Position numbers and translations under genes: made by a program
Origin: a virus
IMG/VR virus record: IMGVR_UViG_3300025669_000009
Location: 1-43,985 of that record
Length of the DNA stretch: 43,985 nucleotides
Strand: one strand, 5' to 3'
Notes under the pieces: model-generated
Database searches by the model: none
What the model saw: the letters and a program-made list of their open reading frames with translations, nothing else
What the model was told of the DNA's origin: nothing
Part shown: positions 3,272 to 39,869 of the stretch, piece by piece
How the letters are laid out: each line of letters opens with the position of its first letter
How positions within the stretch are numbered: the first letter of the stretch is position 1

Positions 3272-5001
3272 TTAGCCCCCCATGTTGTTCCTACATTAAC
3301 TTCAGCTTCTAATGGAACCCTTAAACCCTGTACCTTCTCTATCATATGATGTTGTATTATATCATTAACATTATCTGTTATATCAGGAGTATGTTCTACT
3401 ATAACCTCATCATGTATAGTAGCTACTAACCTACCCCCTATCTCTCTTATAGCAGGCCCCATACCTATTAAGGAGAATAAGGTTAACTCCCCTGCACTAC
3501 CCTGTAGCTTAGTATTAAGAGCAAAGAACCTAGCATTCTCTTCATCTAACCACAGCTTACGACCAAATAGGGAGGTTACATATAACTGTCTTTCTGCTAC
3601 AGCTCCTAAGGTAAAGCCGTACTGTCTTAGTTGAGGGAAGGTAGCATAGAACTTCTTCAGTATTTCCCTACACTTAGCTTCTTCCATGTGTATATCTTGA
3701 GCTTGTAGGTTACCTTGGAACCTTGCTACTCCACCACCGTATAGGGTAAGGTATACTAGGGTCTTAGATATGTCTCTAGCAGCAGGGTACTTCTTCTTTA
3801 CTTCATTAGGTTCACAGTCTAAGCCCATTATGTCTTTAGCTACCCATCCGTGGAAGTCTACACCACTTGATATAAGGGCTATCAGGTGCTCATCACAGGA
3901 GAAGTGAGCTGCTAATCTTAGTTCTATTTGGCTATAATCTGCTATACTGAATAGTTTACCTTCTGCTGGTATGAATATCTCCCTTACTCTACCATCTCTT
4001 CTTACAGGTACTTGTTGTATGTTAGGTTCTGATGATGACGCTCTACCTGTTCTTACCTTGTATGTTGAGTATGATGGGTATATCATATCCTCTATTCTTA
4101 CCTCATCCCACTTAGCAAAGAACTGGGCTATCTTTATAAGACTTCTATATTCTAGTATTATGGTAGCTATAGGACTGTCTATGGCTGATAAGGCTTCATT
4201 ACTGGTACTGTTCTTCATCTTCTTTGTCTTAGGGTCTATTACCTTAGGGTATAGGCCATCTAGGTGGAACAGCTTAAGCATCTGTTGTACTGAGTTAATG
4301 TTGAAGGTAGCTTTATACTTGGCAGGGTTAGCTGTTCTTAGGTCTTTATAGCTCATACCCTTTACCTTAGCTCTAGCTTCTCTAAGTAGCTTCTGTTCTA
4401 TTCTCTTTATATACTTAGGGTATGATGATTTAAGGGTATCTACTTGTTCCTGTGCCTTGGTGTTATACTCTGTAGCTAGTTCATGTAGTTTATCTACATC
4501 TATACGTACTCCTCCTTCTATCATATGTAGTAGTTCTCTAGCTAAGGGCATGGAATAGTTAAGATAATAGTCTAACATACCCCTCTTCTCTACAGCCTTC
4601 CACAGTACGGGGAATAGGTTATATGTCTGTTCACAGTCTATCTTATTGTATGCTTTAGTATCATCACTATCATCTAGCTTCTTACGGTTAACCATCTTCT
4701 TCCATCTCTTAACACCTAGGAAGTCTACAGCTAGGTCTTCTAAGCTATGGCTTTCTACGGGTAGGAGGGAGGAGAGGATAGCTGTATCATGATCTAACCT
4801 TAATCCTTCTATACCCCATTGACAGTCGAATAGACCATTGTGATATATCTGTTGATAGTCAAGGAGGTTAGGGGGTACATTCTTACCCTTACCACATACA
4901 AACTTCTTAGGGCTATATATACCAGTACATAACACATCTTCCTTATGACTGTTAAGACCAGTTGTTTCTATGTCTATGGCTACGTAGTTGATACTACTCA
5001 T
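3268..5001 (-). CDS. DNA polymerase, family A, with 3'-5' exonuclease
   Basis: Replicative or repair DNA polymerase of 577 residues without a 5'-3' exonuclease domain. The proofreading domain shows ExoI DIET (D10, E12), ExoII HNGLFD (N55, D59) and ExoIII AYNKID (Y118, D122). The polymerase domain shows motif A IADYSQIELR (D355), motif B R409-K413-Y417-Y421 and motif C TIHDEV (H530, D531). The residue matching E. coli Pol I Phe762 is Tyr417, as in T7 polymerase. The ATG at 5001 overlaps the end of the upstream zinc-ribbon gene and follows AAGGGATAGCC. No helicase or primase gene was recognised beside it or elsewhere. Confidence 0.97.
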   Translation of the reverse strand: MSSINYVAIDIETTGLNSHKEDVLCTGIYSPKKFVCGKGKNVPPNLLDYQQIYHNGLFDCQWGIEGLRLDHDTAILSSLLPVESHSLEDLAVDFLGVKRWKKMVNRKKLDDSDDTKAYNKIDCEQTYNLFPVLWKAVEKRGMLDYYLNYSMPLARELLHMIEGGVRIDVDKLHELATEYNTKAQEQVDTLKSSYPKYIKRIEQKLLREARAKVKGMSYKDLRTANPAKYKATFNINSVQQMLKLFHLDGLYPKVIDPKTKKMKNSTSNEALSAIDSPIATIILEYRSLIKIAQFFAKWDEVRIEDMIYPSYSTYKVRTGRASSSEPNIQQVPVRRDGRVREIFIPAEGKLFSIADYSQIELRLAAHFSCDEHLIALISSGVDFHGWVAKDIMGLDCEPNEVKKKYPAARDISKTLVYLTLYGGGVARFQGNLQAQDIHMEEAKCREILKKFYATFPQLRQYGFTLGAVAERQLYVTSLFGRKLWLDEENARFFALNTKLQGSAGELTLFSLIGMGPAIREIGGRLVATIHDEVIVEHTPDITDNVNDIIQHHMIEKVQGLRVPLEAEVNVGTTWGAK

Positions 5002-17507: not shown

Positions 17508-19955
17508 ATGGATAAACCACAATACAAGGAATGGGAAATATTTAAAGCTTTCTGCTTATATTACCTAGAAGAGTATTGTGAAGCCCCCTTTGCTCCTATG
17601 CATGATGAGTGGATGCAAGCTATCTTTGCAGGAGAGGGTATGGTTATAGCAGCTCCACGTGGACATGCTAAGGCCCAAAGCCTTAACTCCAAGGTACTCA
17701 CCCCAGATGGATGGTCTACGATAGGAAGCCTCAGTGTAGGGGATAAGGTTATAGGCTCCAACGGTGCTCCAACCGCAGTTATAGCATTACATCCAATAAG
17801 CAAGATGGACTTGTATAAGGTATCCACCCGTGATGGCCGTAGCACCCTATGTAACGCAGAGCACCTATGGACTGTAGAAACACCCTCCAACACAGGGAAC
17901 AGAGAAATAACTAAAGAAACACAAGAACTAGCACAGAACTACAAGGCCCCACGATTGGATAAACGCAGTGGAGAAACATATACAGAATATAGACACTTCC
18001 TTCCAAACCCAGCTCCAGTAGACTTACCAGAACAGCATCTACCAGTAGACCCCTATACGCTAGGATTATGGCTAGGAGATGGAACATCTAGAGAAGGACA
18101 GCTCACAACAGCAGACCCAGAAATTCTATCATACATACCATACCCTAATACTAAATCCAAATCAGCACAGTATAGGTACCAGATAAAAGGACTCTCTAAA
18201 GACCTAAGAAAGGCAGAAGTTCTTAACAATAAGCATATCCCCAAAGCCTACCTAATAGGCAGCATAACCCAGCGACACGCTCTATTGCAAGGCTTAATAG
18301 ACACAGATGGTACAGTAGCCCCAGATGGCAAAACCTTTAGCTTTTGTAACAAGGACAAGAACCTAATAGACGGAGTGGTAGAACTAGTACGCAGCCTTGG
18401 CGGTACAGCCCTTGTAAGTTCTCAGCAAACACGGGTAAACAAATATTCAACCCATTGGTTTCAGTCCTATAGAGTATCCTGCAAGCTATCTAAGGATATC
18501 AACCCAGCAAGACTCTCAAGGAAAGCGGATAGATGGCAGGGGAGTAGAACACTAAAGAACGCCATAACAGCAATTGAACCCTACAGCGCAGCGTTAGGCA
18601 GATGTATAACAGTAGAAGCAGAAGATGGTAGATACATAACAGATGATTATCTCCTAACACACAACTCTATGATATTCTCAGTCTTTCTTCCACTATACCT
18701 ATTACTTACAAAGAACAACTGTACAATAGCCTTAGTAGGATCATCTATAAAGAACATACAGAAGAGAAGAATGACAGTTATTATAAGAGAGCTTAAACAT
18801 AACTCTATGATAATACAAGACTTCGGCAGTATCCTAATAGGTCAAGGCTCAGTAGAAGGTATCGTAACAACCAAGAACACCAAGATGACACCTTATGGTA
18901 TAGATACTAGATATAGAGGAGAAAGACCTCACTGGCTAATCCTAGATGATATAGAGAACGACATAAACGTAAGAAGTAAAGAACAAAGAGATAAGATAAC
19001 CCATCAATTCTCTAGCGAGTGGTTCGGCTCCTTACACGCTAAAGGCACCATGATCATCGCAGGAACAGTCTTACACCCTCTAGGCTTCATAAGCACCTTA
19101 ATCAATACCCAATACAGCGACAGAGTAAACTGGTTCAGGAAGCTATACAGAGCACTAGAAACAACTAAAGAAGGTGTAGAGTACAGCGTATGGCCTGAGC
19201 AATACCCCACAGAGAACCTCCTAATGCGCCGTGACGTAGCTCCAGTAGCCTTCCAACAAGAGTTCCAGAACAACCCCCTACCAGACGACATGTGTCACTT
19301 CAAGCTAGAGGACATACAATACTACGACAAACTACCCACCAACCTAAGATTCTGCACAGCAGTAGACCCAGCCAAGTCATTAGACCCTGACGCAGACGAG
19401 ACAGTCATAATCACCGCAGGTACAGATACAGAGAGTAATATACACGTAGCAGACATAACCTCTGATCATCTAACAACAGATAGAATAGTAGATGAAATAT
19501 ATAGACATGCAGATACATGGCATCCTAACCCCTTAGGCATAGAATGTGACGCATATCAACATACCCTCAAATGGTACTTAGACACTAAACGTAAAGAGGG
19601 TGGACATACTAACTTCTTCGTAACAGAACTCCACTCAGGTAATAAGCTAAACGCTAAAGAAAGAAGAATCCTAGCCTTACAACCATTCATCAAACTAGGC
19701 AGAATCAAGTTCCACTCCACAGACGGCACATACACAGGCTGCACTCAAAAGGGCCTAGTAGACCAAATATGTAACTACCCAGGCAGACACGACGACAGAG
19801 TAGACGCTCTATCCTATATCCTAGAAATGGTAACAACCCCCTCAGAAACAGACACACCCTCATACCCCAAAGATTCACTAGGAGAAGTAAAACAAAGATT
19901 TGTAGACAAATACCACAGAGAACGTGCAGCTAAACTCAGAAAGTGGCATTCATAA
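17508..19955 (+). CDS. terL: Terminase large subunit containing an intein
   Basis: DNA-packaging ATPase and nuclease, 815 residues as translated, about 484 after intein removal. The Walker A motif is APRGHAK (49-55) continued by S387 after the intein; Walker B is LILDD with E483 (477-483). The RNase H-like nuclease has D620 (AVDPA), E679/D681 (GIECDAY) and D766 (HDDRVDAL). There is no ribosome site: CCTCCTTA, itself like the 16S tail, precedes the ATG, and an in-frame TAA just upstream excludes an earlier start. The portal ATG follows the stop directly. No small terminase gene lies upstream. Confidence 0.96.
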   Translation: MDKPQYKEWEIFKAFCLYYLEEYCEAPFAPMHDEWMQAIFAGEGMVIAAPRGHAKAQSLNSKVLTPDGWSTIGSLSVGDKVIGSNGAPTAVIALHPISKMDLYKVSTRDGRSTLCNAEHLWTVETPSNTGNREITKETQELAQNYKAPRLDKRSGETYTEYRHFLPNPAPVDLPEQHLPVDPYTLGLWLGDGTSREGQLTTADPEILSYIPYPNTKSKSAQYRYQIKGLSKDLRKAEVLNNKHIPKAYLIGSITQRHALLQGLIDTDGTVAPDGKTFSFCNKDKNLIDGVVELVRSLGGTALVSSQQTRVNKYSTHWFQSYRVSCKLSKDINPARLSRKADRWQGSRTLKNAITAIEPYSAALGRCITVEAEDGRYITDDYLLTHNSMIFSVFLPLYLLLTKNNCTIALVGSSIKNIQKRRMTVIIRELKHNSMIIQDFGSILIGQGSVEGIVTTKNTKMTPYGIDTRYRGERPHWLILDDIENDINVRSKEQRDKITHQFSSEWFGSLHAKGTMIIAGTVLHPLGFISTLINTQYSDRVNWFRKLYRALETTKEGVEYSVWPEQYPTENLLMRRDVAPVAFQQEFQNNPLPDDMCHFKLEDIQYYDKLPTNLRFCTAVDPAKSLDPDADETVIITAGTDTESNIHVADITSDHLTTDRIVDEIYRHADTWHPNPLGIECDAYQHTLKWYLDTKRKEGGHTNFFVTELHSGNKLNAKERRILALQPFIKLGRIKFHSTDGTYTGCTQKGLVDQICNYPGRHDDRVDALSYILEMVTTPSETDTPSYPKDSLGEVKQRFVDKYHRERAAKLRKWHS
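17673..18665 (+). other. Class 3-type intein with LAGLIDADG homing endonuclease
   Basis: Residues 56-386 of TerL (331 residues) form an intein between K and S of Walker A. It begins with Ala56 (AQSLNSKVLTPDGW), not Cys or Ser, and ends THN before Ser387. Block B carries H119-L-W121, block F C366 (GRCITVE) and block G T384, the Trp-Cys-Thr set that defines class 3 inteins, in which the block F cysteine makes the first acyl shift. Two dodecapeptide motifs, LGLWLGDG (185-192) and LLQGLIDTDG (259-268), retain their acidic residues, so the endonuclease looks intact. Confidence 0.93.
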
Positions 19956-23360: not shown

Positions 23361-24320
23361 ATGGCAATATCATATCCCTATGAATTAGACAGAGAGCGTA
23401 GTAACGAACGCCTCGCCTCATTCTTCGCAAAAGTAATAAAGAAATCCCCCGTAGACACAGAATTCCGTAAACGCCCTCTCCTCGACATGATGCAGAGCAA
23501 GCGTAAGAAAACAGTTGGTGCTCAGCCCCTATCTTTCCCAGTTGGCTACGGCGAATCCCCCAACTTCCGCAGAGGCGATCCAGCTGATCTCTACGCTGTC
23601 GTAGCTTCCAGTGGAACCAGCAAGATGAAGGTAGCAACCTACGACTTCGTAGATATGTATGACAAACTCGTCATATCAGGCCGTGAACAGCGTGAACTCT
23701 CTGAACCACGCCTTATCGACAGAATGAAATACAAACATGACCTCATCATCAAAACCAACATCCTCAACAAAGCAAAAGATCTCTTCGCAGCAGCAGCAGT
23801 AGCAGGACATTGTTCCTCACTCGCTCTCGGCGTTGACTCGTCTGGTTCGTTTGCAGGCGTTGACCCAGCAGTTGTAACAGGTTGGGCCTCACAGGAAGAC
23901 AATCACGCAGCAGCATTCGCCGTAGGTGGATACGAAGCTATGATTGCTCTCTCCAAAGACATCCAAGAAGTAGGTGGAATGACGGACGTTATCGTAATGC
24001 CTAAAGACCTCCACGCTGACCTTGAAATGTCCTATGATGCAGATATCCGCTATTCAAGCACCAAAGAGCTTGATAGAGGCGCAGATGGCATCAAATTCCG
24101 TGGCGTTAAATGTATCTTTGACAGCGACTGCACAGATGACGCTATGTACTTCCTTGACTTAGATTCATGTTACCTTATCTGTAACAGCCAAGCTGACATG
24201 AAGTTTGAAGCTCTTGTCAACAACGACGACCAAGATGCTATGTCCGCATTCTTCCTCGACGAATTCCAGGTTGTTATCGAAGACCGCAGAGCACAGGGCA
24301 AGATCTACGCAATGACGTAG
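23361..24320 (+). CDS. Major capsid protein
   Basis: A 319-residue protein after the scaffold gene and before a small decoration-like gene. It has a charged N-terminal arm (ELDRERSNERLASFFAKVIK), a glycine-containing loop region (AQPLSFPVGYGESPNFRRGD), a spine-helix-like segment (DRMKYKHDLIIKTNILNKAK) and a DVIVMPKDLHADLEMSYDAD motif seen in HK97-fold capsids. Codons here are shifted to GC-ending synonyms compared with neighbours, as expected for the most abundant protein. The assignment relies mainly on position and size; fold is inferred. Confidence 0.85.
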   Translation: MAISYPYELDRERSNERLASFFAKVIKKSPVDTEFRKRPLLDMMQSKRKKTVGAQPLSFPVGYGESPNFRRGDPADLYAVVASSGTSKMKVATYDFVDMYDKLVISGREQRELSEPRLIDRMKYKHDLIIKTNILNKAKDLFAAAAVAGHCSSLALGVDSSGSFAGVDPAVVTGWASQEDNHAAAFAVGGYEAMIALSKDIQEVGGMTDVIVMPKDLHADLEMSYDADIRYSSTKELDRGADGIKFRGVKCIFDSDCTDDAMYFLDLDSCYLICNSQADMKFEALVNNDDQDAMSAFFLDEFQVVIEDRRAQGKIYAMT

Positions 24321-26912: not shown

Positions 26913-28127
26913 ATGTCAGGATTCTCTACATATGTCCCCTTACCCGAGGTAGGTGCAGCAGTAATAGGAAGAGCATCAACAGCCACCCTATACGTATCTC
27001 CCAACGGCTCCAACGCTGACGGCAAAACATGGTCATCAGCCTATAACACCATCCAAGCAGCCCTAGACGCAGCCTCAACCGACGCTGACGATTGCACCCT
27101 AATCCTCATAGGCCCTCACGCTACCTACTACGACATAAACACAACAGGTGATCCTACATGGACAGGTAACTATATCCTTAAAGGCAGCCACAGACTATGG
27201 GCACCAGTAAGAAACGAACATAACAACGCTACCTCAGTATTCAAGTTCACAGGAAAGATATCACTAGTAGACCTAGCAATATTCTCCACTGACAACGGTA
27301 TAGGAGGTTCAGTTGGCGGTGTCATCTCCACCCAGTCTGGCTTTAGAATTAGACATTGTGGATTTAACTCAGAATCTGTAACCCACGCTTGCACAGGAAT
27401 TCACATCGATGGCAGCGGTGGCTTCATAAGAGGCGGTATAATTGAAGAAGTAAAGATACTAGGAACCGCAGCTTATACAACTGGCCTTTACCTAGACACA
27501 GCAAAGATTAACAACTTCACGGACATGATTATTCATGGCTGTCTAAAAGGTGTACAGATAATCAACGCAGCTAGTGACGATAACGAGTTCTGCGGTATAG
27601 ACATAGGTAATTGTAGTGCTACAGTAGCTGTAGAAGGAACAGATGGTATAGCCTTTGATATAGATGCAGGTAACGAACAACACTTCAATAATATTCTACT
27701 TCATAATAACACCATCAACTTCGCCACAGTAACAGAAGACCACCACTATCAGAACATAATTGGTGAGTTCCCAATTTACCTATTACCCTTAAATGATGTT
27801 GATACTGGAGTATCAGTTTCTGCTACAGAGGATGGTTGGGGTGGGGACACGGTACTAATTGCAGCCGATGCACTAGACAAACCATTTAAAGTAGTTGGCT
27901 ATGTACTTGAACCGTCAGCAGACGAGAATATGAGAATGAGATTCTCTGCGAATAGCGGAACGACTCACTTCGCAGAAACCATGTTTGCATCAAAGAAGAA
28001 CAAAGCATCTGCTGCTGGCACTACCACTGATTTCGTATTCAATGCCAACACTAGAATAAGCGCAAGTGCATACGCCGGCTCAGGTGGTAGGACAATTAGA
28101 GTTTGGTTAGAAATTCAAGAAATATAA
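26913..28127 (+). CDS. Right-handed beta-helix protein, tailspike-like
   Basis: A 404-residue protein. Residues 25-60 contain LYVSPNGSNADGKTWSSAYN and TIQAALDAA, the typical entry of pectate-lyase-like beta helices, followed by coils with periodic hydrophobic positions (FKFTGKISLVDLAIFSTDNG; FIRGGIIEEVKILGTAAYTT; DMIIHGCLKGVQIINAASDD). A C-terminal beta domain starts near 300. Such folds form tailspikes or depolymerases; I see no catalytic set I could name. AAAGGAGGCTAACA precedes the ATG. Confidence 0.8.
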   Translation: MSGFSTYVPLPEVGAAVIGRASTATLYVSPNGSNADGKTWSSAYNTIQAALDAASTDADDCTLILIGPHATYYDINTTGDPTWTGNYILKGSHRLWAPVRNEHNNATSVFKFTGKISLVDLAIFSTDNGIGGSVGGVISTQSGFRIRHCGFNSESVTHACTGIHIDGSGGFIRGGIIEEVKILGTAAYTTGLYLDTAKINNFTDMIIHGCLKGVQIINAASDDNEFCGIDIGNCSATVAVEGTDGIAFDIDAGNEQHFNNILLHNNTINFATVTEDHHYQNIIGEFPIYLLPLNDVDTGVSVSATEDGWGGDTVLIAADALDKPFKVVGYVLEPSADENMRMRFSANSGTTHFAETMFASKKNKASAAGTTTDFVFNANTRISASAYAGSGGRTIRVWLEIQEI

Positions 28128-28136
28128 GGAGATAAC

Positions 28137-28268
28137 ATGGCTAATGCAACTAAAGGTAGTTGTGGTGGAACCCCAGTAAGAGGTAAGAAAGGTGACCCTA
28201 AACCCGCTAGAGGTGGAAGAGGTAAACCAACTAAAGGTAACAAAGGAAGAAGACGTAAAGGAAGATAA
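28137..28268 (+). CDS. Very basic Gly/Lys/Arg protein, 43 residues
   Basis: A small gene between two structural genes with AAGGAGATAAC before the ATG. The protein starts MANATKGSCGGTPVRGKKGD and ends GRRRKGR; it has 15 Lys/Arg against one Asp, and glycine in nearly every third position of the second half. It is probably disordered. Candidates are a nucleic-acid-binding or packaged peptide, or a charged partner of the appendage proteins. No family recognised. Confidence 0.78.
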   Translation: MANATKGSCGGTPVRGKKGDPKPARGGRGKPTKGNKGRRRKGR

Positions 28269-28291: not shown

Positions 28292-29251
28292 ATGTCAGCA
28301 TTCTACTACGATACAACTACCCCAACCCCAACATTCAGTTGGGCCTTAGCAGCTGGTACTTTAACCATATCAGCTGAAGGTATCTCTAAGATGACGATGG
28401 AGAAACAAGGCTCCCCAGGTGAAAAGATAGAACTAGACATATCAGGTATGTCATGGACTATCGACGACGACAACGGCTCTGATGAGTTCGTAGGCCGCAT
28501 GGGAACCACAGCCTCCAGAGCATGGGGCAGTGCTATGCCTTACTTTGTATATCTAATTAACTACGACAATACTCCTGGTAATGTACGTATGGCTATCTCC
28601 AGAGACCCTACAGCAAGAGTAACCCCAGCCTCAACAGATGGCATAGGCAGTAATGGAGGAGGAGCAGCAGCTACCCCAGCCCAGACTAACTTCTTTGTAG
28701 CATATACTAATAATACCTCCCTTAACTCCAAGCCTTGTCAACTAATAGACGTAGGTCTATCAGCTATCTGTGATGACTCAGCAGGAGGTATCTGGACCTT
28801 CACCGCCCCAGCAGCAGGTGATTGCTTAGAGAATACCTTCTCCACTATGTATACGTACCCAGAGGGGCAGGGCGGGGCATCAGCAGGTGGGTACTTTAGT
28901 TTAGCAGGAGCTGCTTGCACCCTAGATTTTGCTACAATGTATTACATCTACACCGTGTCCCCCAGTGGTATGTTAGAACTTCTATTTAACACAGGTAATA
29001 GAAGTGCTGGTGATGCTGCCGCCACAGCTTTATATATTCATATGCCTTTATCTTCCTCAGCAGGAATAGGTGTATACCACTCCTACGCAAAAGTAAACAA
29101 CAACTTCAACTTAACAACGTTAGTACCAGCAGCCGCATCCACCTACTTCACTATATTAGCTACCGCATCAAACACTCCCTTTACAGCAGCTAATTTTGCC
29201 AATGCTAATGACAATATAAAGTCTGTGCGTATCACCTGTAAGGTATTCTAA
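28292..29251 (+). CDS. Structural protein
   Basis: A 319-residue beta-rich protein without cysteine-based motifs. The start SAFYYDTTTPTPTFSWALAA and the middle (NFFVAYTNNTSLNSKPCQLI; GMLELLFNTGNRSAGDAAAT) suggest a virion surface protein. AACAAGGAGAATTAAC precedes the ATG. It closes the block of appendage-like genes and abuts the membrane protein gene. Confidence 0.7.
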   Translation: MSAFYYDTTTPTPTFSWALAAGTLTISAEGISKMTMEKQGSPGEKIELDISGMSWTIDDDNGSDEFVGRMGTTASRAWGSAMPYFVYLINYDNTPGNVRMAISRDPTARVTPASTDGIGSNGGGAAATPAQTNFFVAYTNNTSLNSKPCQLIDVGLSAICDDSAGGIWTFTAPAAGDCLENTFSTMYTYPEGQGGASAGGYFSLAGAACTLDFATMYYIYTVSPSGMLELLFNTGNRSAGDAAATALYIHMPLSSSAGIGVYHSYAKVNNNFNLTTLVPAAASTYFTILATASNTPFTAANFANANDNIKSVRITCKVF

Positions 29252-29629
29252 ATGAGTAAATTCCTTTTAGAACTACTTAGAAAGCTGTATCCAAGGGGTA
29301 CGTGGGGTCGTGAAGACCTGACTAATCCGAAGCAGCTACACCTATTCGCTCAAACCTATATACATCTACTGCTGGGGTGTACATTACCCCTTATAGCACT
29401 ACCAATCGTCGCGTGGTGGCCCTTGTGTGGCCTCTCAATAGCATTCCTTATAGCCCTCATAACACCTTTATACAGGGAGTTCCACAATGACAAACATCCA
29501 ATATCTGATATATACAATAACACACCCGCTGGCATTGATTGTCGCTCTGATATCCTAAGCTGTTATGTAGGTAGTATCATAGCTCTAATCCATATAGGAG
29601 TTCTAACATGCCTAATCTCGTTTATCTAA
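29252..29629 (+). CDS. Membrane protein
   Basis: A 125-residue protein with three hydrophobic segments: IHLLLGCTLPLIALPIVAWW, CGLSIAFLIALITPL and SCYVGSIIALIHIGVLTCLI, separated by charged loops (YREFHNDKHPISDIYNN). It has no ribosome site of its own and starts directly after the previous stop, so it is coupled. The role is unknown; a holin or a membrane factor for head assembly are options, but a better holin candidate lies at 40603. Confidence 0.75.
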   Translation: MSKFLLELLRKLYPRGTWGREDLTNPKQLHLFAQTYIHLLLGCTLPLIALPIVAWWPLCGLSIAFLIALITPLYREFHNDKHPISDIYNNTPAGIDCRSDILSCYVGSIIALIHIGVLTCLISFI

Positions 29630-30578: not shown

Positions 30579-32567
30579 ATGTCCCTTAAAGATGCTAACA
30601 TAGAACCAATAGAGTTCAAAGACTTTACAGGCGGTTGGTCTCAATCCCGTACACCCAACCCCAACCAGTCCCCTGACACCTTAAACTGTCAAACTAAGAA
30701 CTCCAAGCTAACCCATTCAAACGGTGAAACCGCCCTTGAATCGGGCCAAGTTCTACCTGTAGACTCAACTGTCCCTATATACGGTATACATATAAATGAA
30801 TCAACTAAAGACATTATATGCCGTACAGATACAGAGCTACATAGAATAGACAATGTAACAATACCCTTTAACCTAACTACTACAGACATAACCTCAGGTA
30901 TTAACTTAGGTATACCAGATCATCCTACATCATCAGTAATGTATAACGATGCCCTAATAGGCTGTGATCCTAATAGTGATATATGGAGGGTAGTAGGTAA
31001 CTCTGACGCTGTATCTATTAATGCCTCAGGCCCTGAATCAGCTTATGCCTGCGGTGTCTTTAAAGATAGACTTGTCTTTGCAGGTATTAAGTACGCAGGT
31101 GCATGGTATCCCACCGCTGTTGTATACTCAGACCAAGATGACGCTAATGGCTGGGATGTCGCCTTCCAACGCTGGGAATTAGAAACAGATAAAATAGAAT
31201 ACTGTTGTCATGTATCTCAGATAGGTGAAGATCTATTTGTATATAAAACTAACTCCATAGCTAAGATATCAGGTTATCCTCCCTATGACTGGGTTGTTGA
31301 TCGTACCTTCATTAATGGTATAGGTCCTATGTCTACAGGAGCAGTACAACGCTGCTTCATCCAAGCTCAATCCCAACTATTAGAAGTAGATATCTTCTTA
31401 GCCTATACGGGTCTGTATGCCTTTGATGGCTCCTCTTTAATGGCCTTACCCTTTTCACAAGATAACACTGCTTTAAAGGACTTCTGGAACTCTATACTAT
31501 GGTCTTCTACCTCTCTTAACAGAGTAGCTTCTACATATGATAAAGCTAATGGTATGTATAAGGTATGGTTTACAGATGGTAATGCTGGTTCTATACAAGG
31601 TATTGCTTATGATTGTATCAATAACTCTGTATGGCCCTTATCATCACCTTCAGTACCGTACTCAGCAGCTTGTACTATAACCCCTGATGATACCCATGAC
31701 TTAGCAGATCATGTTGTATATGGTCATGATAATGGCCTTGTTACAAGAGAAACCTCCCTACATCCTCTTATCCCCTCTACTACCCAACTAATAACTAATG
31801 GTGGTATGGAGCTAGACAGTGATTGGACTACCTATGATCCTACCGCCTCAGGCACAGTAACTAACGAACGCTCTGCTATCTTTGAATATAAGAACACCTA
31901 TTCCAGACATATCCTCTTAGGAGCAGCAGCTACCTCAGGTGGTGCTTATCAAACAATAGCTGGTCTAACTGTAGGTAATGTATATGAAGTATCCTGCTTC
32001 GTCAACCAGACTGTGGCAGATACCTCTCAGATAGTAGTACGTGCAGGAACAACCACACTAGCTACAGGTTACAGTGATAGCTCTTCCCCATGGGAGAACA
32101 TCAAGACATCCTTCGTTGCTACAGCTACATCAGTTAATATACATCTAGAGGTTATAACAGTAGGCTCTGAAGCATACTTCGATCATATACAGATGTTTGA
32201 TATGACTCGTAATGTATATTATAAGACACCTATCCTAGACATGGACTCTAAGTATACTAAGAAGATAATGAAGGAATCAGGTGTAGAGTTTGAATGTATT
32301 GACGATTCCTCCTTCACTGTAGAAGCTACATATGATGATGGTAGAGACACCTCCACAACCTCCTCGATTAACCAATCTGCTCTATCAACGGAGTCCTCAC
32401 GCATATCATCATTAACAACATCCTCAGCAGGTATAGCAGGTAAACAATTCAGACAGGTACAATATACCCTATCTCTAACAACTACATCTAACCTCGTACC
32501 TAACTGGGAAATATCAGCTTTAGTAATGGCTTATACTCCAACAGGCTCTATCTGGCTATTCAATTAA
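30579..32567 (+). CDS. Beta-propeller tail protein with carbohydrate-binding-like domain
   Basis: A 662-residue protein. The N-terminal 400 residues repeat propeller-like blades (TVPIYGIHINESTKDIICRT; DRLVFAGIKYAGAWYPTAVV; GEDLFVYKTNSIAKISGYPP), as in podovirus tail-hub or stabilisation proteins. Around residues 408-545 a jelly-roll module follows, beginning NGGMELDSDWTTYDPTASGT and ending SEAYFDHIQMFD, like CBM4/9 domains. The last 110 residues are Ser/Thr rich. AAAGGATATT precedes the ATG. Likely a tail tube or hub component. Confidence 0.75.
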   Translation: MSLKDANIEPIEFKDFTGGWSQSRTPNPNQSPDTLNCQTKNSKLTHSNGETALESGQVLPVDSTVPIYGIHINESTKDIICRTDTELHRIDNVTIPFNLTTTDITSGINLGIPDHPTSSVMYNDALIGCDPNSDIWRVVGNSDAVSINASGPESAYACGVFKDRLVFAGIKYAGAWYPTAVVYSDQDDANGWDVAFQRWELETDKIEYCCHVSQIGEDLFVYKTNSIAKISGYPPYDWVVDRTFINGIGPMSTGAVQRCFIQAQSQLLEVDIFLAYTGLYAFDGSSLMALPFSQDNTALKDFWNSILWSSTSLNRVASTYDKANGMYKVWFTDGNAGSIQGIAYDCINNSVWPLSSPSVPYSAACTITPDDTHDLADHVVYGHDNGLVTRETSLHPLIPSTTQLITNGGMELDSDWTTYDPTASGTVTNERSAIFEYKNTYSRHILLGAAATSGGAYQTIAGLTVGNVYEVSCFVNQTVADTSQIVVRAGTTTLATGYSDSSSPWENIKTSFVATATSVNIHLEVITVGSEAYFDHIQMFDMTRNVYYKTPILDMDSKYTKKIMKESGVEFECIDDSSFTVEATYDDGRDTSTTSSINQSALSTESSRISSLTTSSAGIAGKQFRQVQYTLSLTTTSNLVPNWEISALVMAYTPTGSIWLFN

Positions 32568-39275: not shown

Positions 39276-39869
39276 ATGACCAACGAGCCAACTAAATACT
39301 GTACCAAGTGTAAGAGATCCCATGCCATATCCTCCTTCTCTAAGGATGGTAGATCTAAGGATGGATTACAGAAGTGGTGTAAGATAGCTATGCAAGATCA
39401 TAAGGAGTTAAGGAAGACAGCTAAGAGAAAGAAGGCTAAGGTTCTTAAGGAGGTTATTAATGAGACTCCTAAGATACAGAAGCTTGTAGAAGTATCTAAT
39501 GAATTAGGTGGTGATCTTGTAGGTGCTTATCAATCTATTAATGGTAATGTATCAAGAGCTAGAGCTAGAGAAGGTCTTAATTGTTACCTTGAAAGGATAG
39601 CAGATAATACCTCTCTATCTAAGACAGCTGAGAAGATAACAGAGTCTTCCTTGTTTAAGTCCTTTGTAGATAAATACCTTAACTTATGCTATGAATCATC
39701 TAACCCTTCTTATATGAAGGATGCTATATTGACTATGGGTAAGCTCTCTGGTCAATTAATAACTAAGACAGAAGTTAATGATGTATCAGCTGAAGATGCT
39801 AATGCTAGGTTTGAGAGTAAGATGGCTAAGGTATTGGATAAGATACATGGTAAAGAGACTGTACAATAG
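39276..39869 (+). CDS. Zinc-ribbon protein, possible small terminase candidate
   Basis: A 197-residue basic protein. The start KYCTKCKRSHAISSFSKDG followed by KDGLQKWCK matches the zinc ribbon of HNH proteins such as the one at 7713, but the fourth cysteine is missing (WCKIAM). After a lysine-rich linker come helices (RAREGLNCYLERIADNTSLS; KDAILTMGKLSGQLITKTEV). Its DNA-binding start and helical oligomer-like end make it one of few candidates for the missing small terminase, though it lies 22 kb from terL. ATAAGGACTATT precedes the ATG. Confidence 0.7.
   Translation: MTNEPTKYCTKCKRSHAISSFSKDGRSKDGLQKWCKIAMQDHKELRKTAKRKKAKVLKEVINETPKIQKLVEVSNELGGDLVGAYQSINGNVSRARAREGLNCYLERIADNTSLSKTAEKITESSLFKSFVDKYLNLCYESSNPSYMKDAILTMGKLSGQLITKTEVNDVSAEDANARFESKMAKVLDKIHGKETVQ

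Follow-up and report, generated by a model that had tools for sequence, protein, structure and literature searches.

A conserved family of very basic Cys-Gly microproteins in environmental virus contigs, a candidate late and accessory nucleic-acid-binding factor

The window analysed here is an entire virus record of 43,985 bases, and the features around the gene of interest are collected in Table 1. The short ORF encodes the 43-aa peptide MANATKGSCGGTPVRGKKGDPKPARGGRGKPTKGNKGRRRKGR, which contains eight Lys and seven Arg but one Asp, together with 11 Gly and one Cys. The first-pass annotation had described a super-basic 43-residue gene with a perfect ribosome site between two structural genes, and its coordinates and the 15 Lys/Arg to one Asp were reproduced; the glycines number 11, and the ribosome site is an AAGGAG 5 nt upstream of the ATG. 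This AAGGAG shares bases with the stop codon (28125-28127) of the 404-aa gene, and the downstream gene starting at 28292 is preceded by an AAGGAG of its own.

Table 1. Features at the microprotein locus, in window coordinates
Feature	Coordinates	Strand	Remarks
Upstream 404-aa gene, probable appendage	26913..28127	+	No PHROGs or Pfam match
Shine-Dalgarno AAGGAG	28126..28131	+	5 nt ahead of the ATG (sequence)
143-bp segment (most of the Shine-Dalgarno sequence and the gene), missing in L003	28127..28269	+	Junction computed
Basic microprotein gene, 43 aa	28137..28268	+	Core KGxCGGTPxxGxxGDxKP and Arg/Gly tail
18-residue conserved core KGSCGGTPVRGKKGDPKP	28152..28205	+	Residues 6-23; Cys is residue 9
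C-terminal Arg/Lys/Gly-rich tail	28206..28265	+	Composition kept among relatives, sequence not
Downstream 319-aa gene	28292..29251	+	Protein 68% identical in L002/L003

Upstream on the same strand, a head and packaging module was verified, with TerL at 17508, a portal gene (19956, a weak match) and a major head protein gene at 23361. The two immediate neighbours of the basic gene (404 and 319 aa) had no match in PHROGs or Pfam, and their earlier label as appendage genes is plausible. A pattern search of viral contigs for relatives of the 404-aa gene yielded six stretches, none of them confirmed, and searches of isolated phages with the downstream gene and a 3.9-kb DNA stretch gave no match. 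The TerL of the window (17508-19955) has 815 aa, with separate PHROG matches at residues 46-391 and 387-788; 12 isolated-phage TerLs among the matches listed are 24-29% identical to it, and all 999 isolated-phage records that match it do so at <60% identity. The 662-aa protein encoded at 30579-32567 has a sub-threshold match to the carbohydrate-binding domain CBM_4_9 (E 0.00047) and is possibly a receptor-binding tail protein. Downstream of the structural genes, at 39276-39869, endonuclease VII/HNH and Lar-like restriction-alleviation PHROGs were matched.

The net charge of the peptide is by itself unexceptional in this window and weak, not decisive, proof of a gene. The window has 379 stop-free stretches that reach 40 codons, and their top 43-residue net charges were 20, 16, 14, 14, 14 and 14; the ORF at 28137-28268 is one of the four stretches at +14, and two exceed it. 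Charge was rejected as stand-alone evidence because other stop-free stretches are equally basic, and this, like the short length, speaks for a chance ORF. That the ORF is more than chance follows instead from its conservation as a family.

Viral contigs were scanned with three DNA patterns, the third of which omits the Cys. The KG[S..]CGGTP pattern gave 58 loci, consisting of 47 family members, five of a sister type, one nuclease fusion (L021) and five unrelated sequences, and the CGGTPRVG pattern gave 72 loci, consisting of 61 members, L021 and 10 unrelated sequences. All 78 loci found with the Cys-free TPRVGxxGDxKP pattern were members, one of which (L141) is cut by the contig end. Including the window, the union of the scans holds 81 ORFs in 81 contigs, of which 68 are distinct and 67 of these complete, at 23-55 aa and with a median length of 36 aa. 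The family consensus is KG[S/D/E]CG.TPRVGxxGDxKP followed by an Arg/Gly tail. This family, found in environmental virus contigs, is previously unlabelled, and no name for it was found. The first-pass annotation had given a frame not conserved in relatives as a ground for refutation; the 81 ORFs answer this, although L002 and L003, the closest relatives in which the region is present, lack the gene.

Judged by its residues, the window peptide is a divergent member of the family. Residues 6-13 read KGSCGGTP, within the KG[SDE]CGGTP core, and GDPKP is followed by the basic, Arg/Gly-rich tail ARGGRGKPTKGNKGRRRKGR; a single Cys, no aromatic residues and a short ORF behind a Shine-Dalgarno sequence are likewise as in the other members. 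It has VRG where the family usually has RVG, with R first in 51 and V second in 50 of 53 distinct peptides. Two other members deviate here, L041 (RIG) and L056 (KNG), and since the G is kept in the deviants, RVG was not treated as required. L041 is also the best local match of the window peptide with the low-complexity filter off. Its gene order is a 447-aa ORF (truncated where the fetched DNA stops), the family gene, a 76-aa ORF and a further gene that BLAST-clusters with the window gene at 29608, at an alignment identity of only 21%. A looser pattern gave a single match in each of 13 chosen records scanned whole, and L043 and L051 share one peptide.

Within the 18-residue core, which is partly fixed by the search patterns, 53 distinct sequences differed pairwise by a mean of 0.108 at first and second codon positions, against 0.559 at third positions. 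In KGxCG, which lies outside the third pattern, 61 peptides gave 0.129, 0.129 and 0.525 at positions 1, 2 and 3. Third codon positions thus vary 4-5 times as much as first and second positions, indicating that selection acts on the protein. A chance ORF is thereby already refuted and retains a practically negligible probability, and the claim of a real but easily missed gene is strongly supported by a family of this size. None of the 64 untruncated distinct peptides from the Cys-free scan lacks the Cys, not even those of L131, L132 and L137, which have extra residues between it and TPRVG; its invariance was thus not created by the search. In CGG, the second G varies, being replaced by R, K, A, S or N. 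With a loose motif list, Shine-Dalgarno sequences of at least five bases precede 52 of the 67 complete ORFs and four-base ones the remaining 15; with a stricter list, 36 of 53 were strong, 16 weak and one absent.

Each of the 67 complete peptides carries a single Cys, a residue required by two of the three search patterns, and lacks Phe, Trp and Tyr; net charges range from +6 to +15. Leu, Ile and Met total 17 in 53 peptides, start Met excluded. In the tails of the 53 distinct members, R makes up 36% and G 33% of the residues, the make-up being kept and the order not. AlphaFold2 with the 53-sequence alignment gave a pLDDT of 62.5 and a pTM of 0.19 and predicted no secondary structure or fold; the microprotein is best read as soluble and intrinsically disordered. 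The first-pass annotation had offered an antimicrobial-like peptide as one function, which could take the form of an outer-membrane-disrupting lysis peptide of the cationic disruptin type. The peptides are indeed small and cationic, and cationic lysis peptides of phages are reported to exist (Holt et al. 2022, a reference of PMC9239132). However, an amphipathic structure with a hydrophobic face was not seen, aliphatic residues being few, aromatic ones absent and the model of low confidence without a predicted helix, and the family gene recurrently adjoins head, packaging and tail genes. Action on membranes is unlikely because hydrophobic residues are lacking, and a peptide of this kind is very improbable.

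The downstream gene of the window matches two loci, L002 and L003, which do not differ from each other in the 1,000 bases that precede the match. L003 aligns with the window DNA at 92% identity over 587 bases from 28262. The 143-bp gap in L003 is flanked by 20 and 22 identical bases, and its placement is ambiguous by 1 base (28127/8 to 28269/70). A 7-base direct repeat at this indel was considered and dropped, the computed junction overlap being 1 base. The sequence TGYGGNGGNWSNCC was sought in the 41.5-kb L003 record, which may be incomplete, and had no match. Since L003 lacks exactly these 143 bp, the basic gene behaves as an accessory unit with its own ribosome site. In L003 the 404-aa gene is represented, at 4884-4979, by an ORF of only 31 aa that retains both termini of the protein, a natural presence/absence difference of its entire middle part. 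The records of three TerL relatives, L126 and L127 (TerL 100% identical) and L062, are fragmentary, and their fetched DNA stops short of the locus, so that they are no test of conservation.

Genomic position was analysed for 53 distinct members, 15 distinct peptides from the third scan being left out. Within 5 kb of these members, same-strand ORFs of at least 100 aa add up to 86,847 residues and opposite-strand ones to 5,351. The nearest ORF of at least 80 aa was on the same strand in 38 cases upstream and 45 downstream, on the opposite strand in five cases on either side, and absent in 10 and three cases, respectively. Recurrent neighbours are TerL (three PHROG families), head-tail adaptor, portal, major head protein and tail genes. 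Matches were to 55 families for the 68 upstream genes and 72 for the 93 downstream genes, with 25 each among the matches listed, and many neighbours were unmatched. The family gene lies directly before TerL in L008, L026 and L053, between TerL and portal in L061, after the adaptor in L009 and L042, and in L043 between the head protein gene and a preceding gene whose PHROG matches are an unknown and a protease family and which may, as a guess from position, encode a scaffold. Furthermore, the slots differ between related phages: L009 and L043 have head proteins 65% and adaptors 61% identical, and L006 and L067 head proteins 76% and adaptors only 33% identical, with the family gene in different slots in each pair. 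The family gene is thus probably late, mobile and accessory, and because its slots change, L003 lacks it and L021 carries it fused to an HNH gene, it is not essential in all phages. The earlier idea of an electrostatic clamp between the two structural neighbours is disfavoured, since in relatives the same core occupies other slots, next to unrelated genes, and the clamp was rejected as a general function.

Changing slots could also mean that the gene is a passenger of homing endonucleases, travelling with HNH elements and serving their mobility over the phage. HNH or endonuclease VII genes adjoin it in L005 and L052, and in L021 (4979-5422, minus strand) the first 15 core residues run on in frame, from KGSCGGTPRVGKKGD, into an HNH endonuclease. 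The L021 contig begins inside this fusion gene, the start codon lying outside the contig, and the HNH part extends up to the start of an ORF that looks like the L026 TerL by eye. However, phrog_1035 accounts for three of the 68 upstream and one of the 93 downstream genes, and other HNH families for one or two each (among the matches listed, 25 of 55 and 25 of 72). Moreover, selection at the protein level implies that the gene has a function, so that a mere passenger is highly unlikely.

A set of sister microproteins was found by pattern at 33 viral loci (L012, L018, L023, L040, L046 and L098-L125), mostly reading G[A/S]CGGTP[R/K][R/K]DGSGGGxGNRGTxRQP. With a stricter regular expression, 18 distinct core-to-end sequences were obtained, 17 of which lie in ORFs of 32-59 aa. 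The two families have the CGGTP core in common and the sister ORFs are mostly basic, but after CGGTP[R/K] the sister family has [R/K]DGSGGGxGNRGTxRQP in place of VGxxGDxKP and often carries extra N-terminal sequence; a common origin is not proven by this resemblance. Longer ORFs contain the sister motif as well: one of 205 aa in L018 and a 342-codon open frame in L114, where the form is acidic. In L100, L102 and L103 the next gene after the sister ORF is a long ORF resembling TerL by eye. Roseobacter phage RDJL Phi 1 (INPHARED, E 5) was rejected as a sister member, as it reads RPSCCGGSPKPGG across gp02. A PDB match to myelin transcription factor 1 obtained with the sister profile (E 0.18) and two PHROGs matches of sister members (E 2.7 and 2.8) were judged to be chance. 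The search of isolated phages for the sister family is weak because, as a control indicated, the low-complexity filter masks most queries.

Among 50,697 isolated-phage records, the window peptide, the consensus and the short core of the main family had no match. In a control with the filter switched on and the database size set to 4.6 billion, the three queries recovered 59, 76 and 79 of 80 known loci, and since most family loci are recovered, the absence from isolated phages is real at that sensitivity. The short core had no match in plasmids, where a control at 14.6 billion recovered 77 of 80, and the Ser variant GSCGGTPRVG, the only one searched in GTDB contigs, gave eight loci, none a family member. 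The window peptide had no match in Pfam, PHROGs, NCBIfam or PADLOC. Profile scans of relatives, which left out the 15 distinct peptides from the third scan, gave no family in Pfam or PHROGs at E up to 10 for 13 family and two sister peptides and no PADLOC match for 53 members. The motif letter strings did not occur in the literature searched. As far as such limited searches go, the lack of members in sequenced species suggests that these phages have no prophage state.

Considering these results, we tentatively propose the following scenario, to which we give slightly less than an even chance: the family gene is mobile and accessory and encodes a late, disordered microprotein that binds nucleic acid and is presumably tethered or dimerised via its Cys-Gly core. 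The gene would be expressed late, as its position suggests. The RG tail would bind nucleic acid without sequence specificity, in the manner of RGG or protamine-like sequences, and the rigid Cys-Gly core may dock the microprotein on a common partner; alternatively, a disulfide through the Cys may join two copies. The microprotein could then help, in an accessory role, to compact DNA or RNA while packaging and assembly proceed. The basic composition is only suggestive evidence for nucleic-acid binding. Because nearly the same core adjoins three terminase families, one particular virion protein is a less likely partner than nucleic acid or a conserved host component.

The same near-invariance of the core across three TerL families and varied neighbours, pointing to a partner common to all, together with the accessory and mobile behaviour, would also fit host takeover, in which the Cys-Gly core binds a conserved host machine (e.g., ribosome or RNA polymerase) and the basic tail strengthens RNA or DNA binding. 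However, PHROGs matched none of the 13 members scanned and the gene adjoins structural rather than early genes; packaging and assembly are favoured over early takeover because the adjoining genes are late, and host takeover is somewhat unlikely, though the second candidate. The earlier suggestion of a packaged DNA-condensing peptide, protamine-like and carried in the virion, is possible in that the composition fits: the charge, the Arg/Gly tail and a single Cys able to dimerise agree with it, as does the adjacency to head and packaging genes. In contrast, no solved chain in the PDB matched the profile of 13 family and two sister peptides, and by arithmetic a 44-kb genome has approximately 88,000 phosphates, so that thousands of copies would be needed; we consider this reading unlikely, more so than host takeover. 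The readings are thus ranked with late nucleic-acid binding first, host-machine binding second and the packaged condensing peptide third. A broader hypothesis, which we hold to be rather doubtful, is that this is a widespread family of lytic-phage microproteins, missed by the annotation libraries and absent from the isolated phages that were searched, in which the near-invariant Cys-Gly core engages one conserved host machine and the Arg/Gly tail holds or condenses nucleic acid, that it spreads between late-operon slots as a free-standing module, and that the sister family, which has the CGGTP core but another second half, has the same target.

Small phage genes are poorly annotated, and this family shows a motif tight enough to be found with DNA patterns. 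It is a case of tiny accessory genes moving inside otherwise conserved late gene orders, and it spans phages with different packaging genes, yet no isolated representative was found in the searches.

Among known systems, PatX ends in an RG-rich stretch and in this resembles the family; only one of 53 members matches NF047413 (heterocyst PatX, NCBIfam, E 0.0067), which is approximately chance level over 53 scans and was judged to be chance; the window peptide itself has no match. The cationic disruptins of phages, described by Holt et al. in 2022, are reportedly small cationic phage peptides; unlike them, the window family has neither Phe, Trp or Tyr nor a predicted helix and recurs beside head and packaging genes. 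According to PMC6163548, protamine-like condensing proteins are a class in dsDNA viruses of eukaryotes. The window peptide, a basic, Arg-rich small protein with an Arg/Gly-rich tail, resembles this class in size and charge, and its family differs in having a conserved Cys-Gly core. Disordered tails of the RGG/RG type bind nucleic acid, and the Arg/Gly tail of the window family is likewise kept in composition only and has no predicted fold. Unlike such tails, however, the members are stand-alone microproteins of median length 36 aa, built around a near-invariant 18-residue core.
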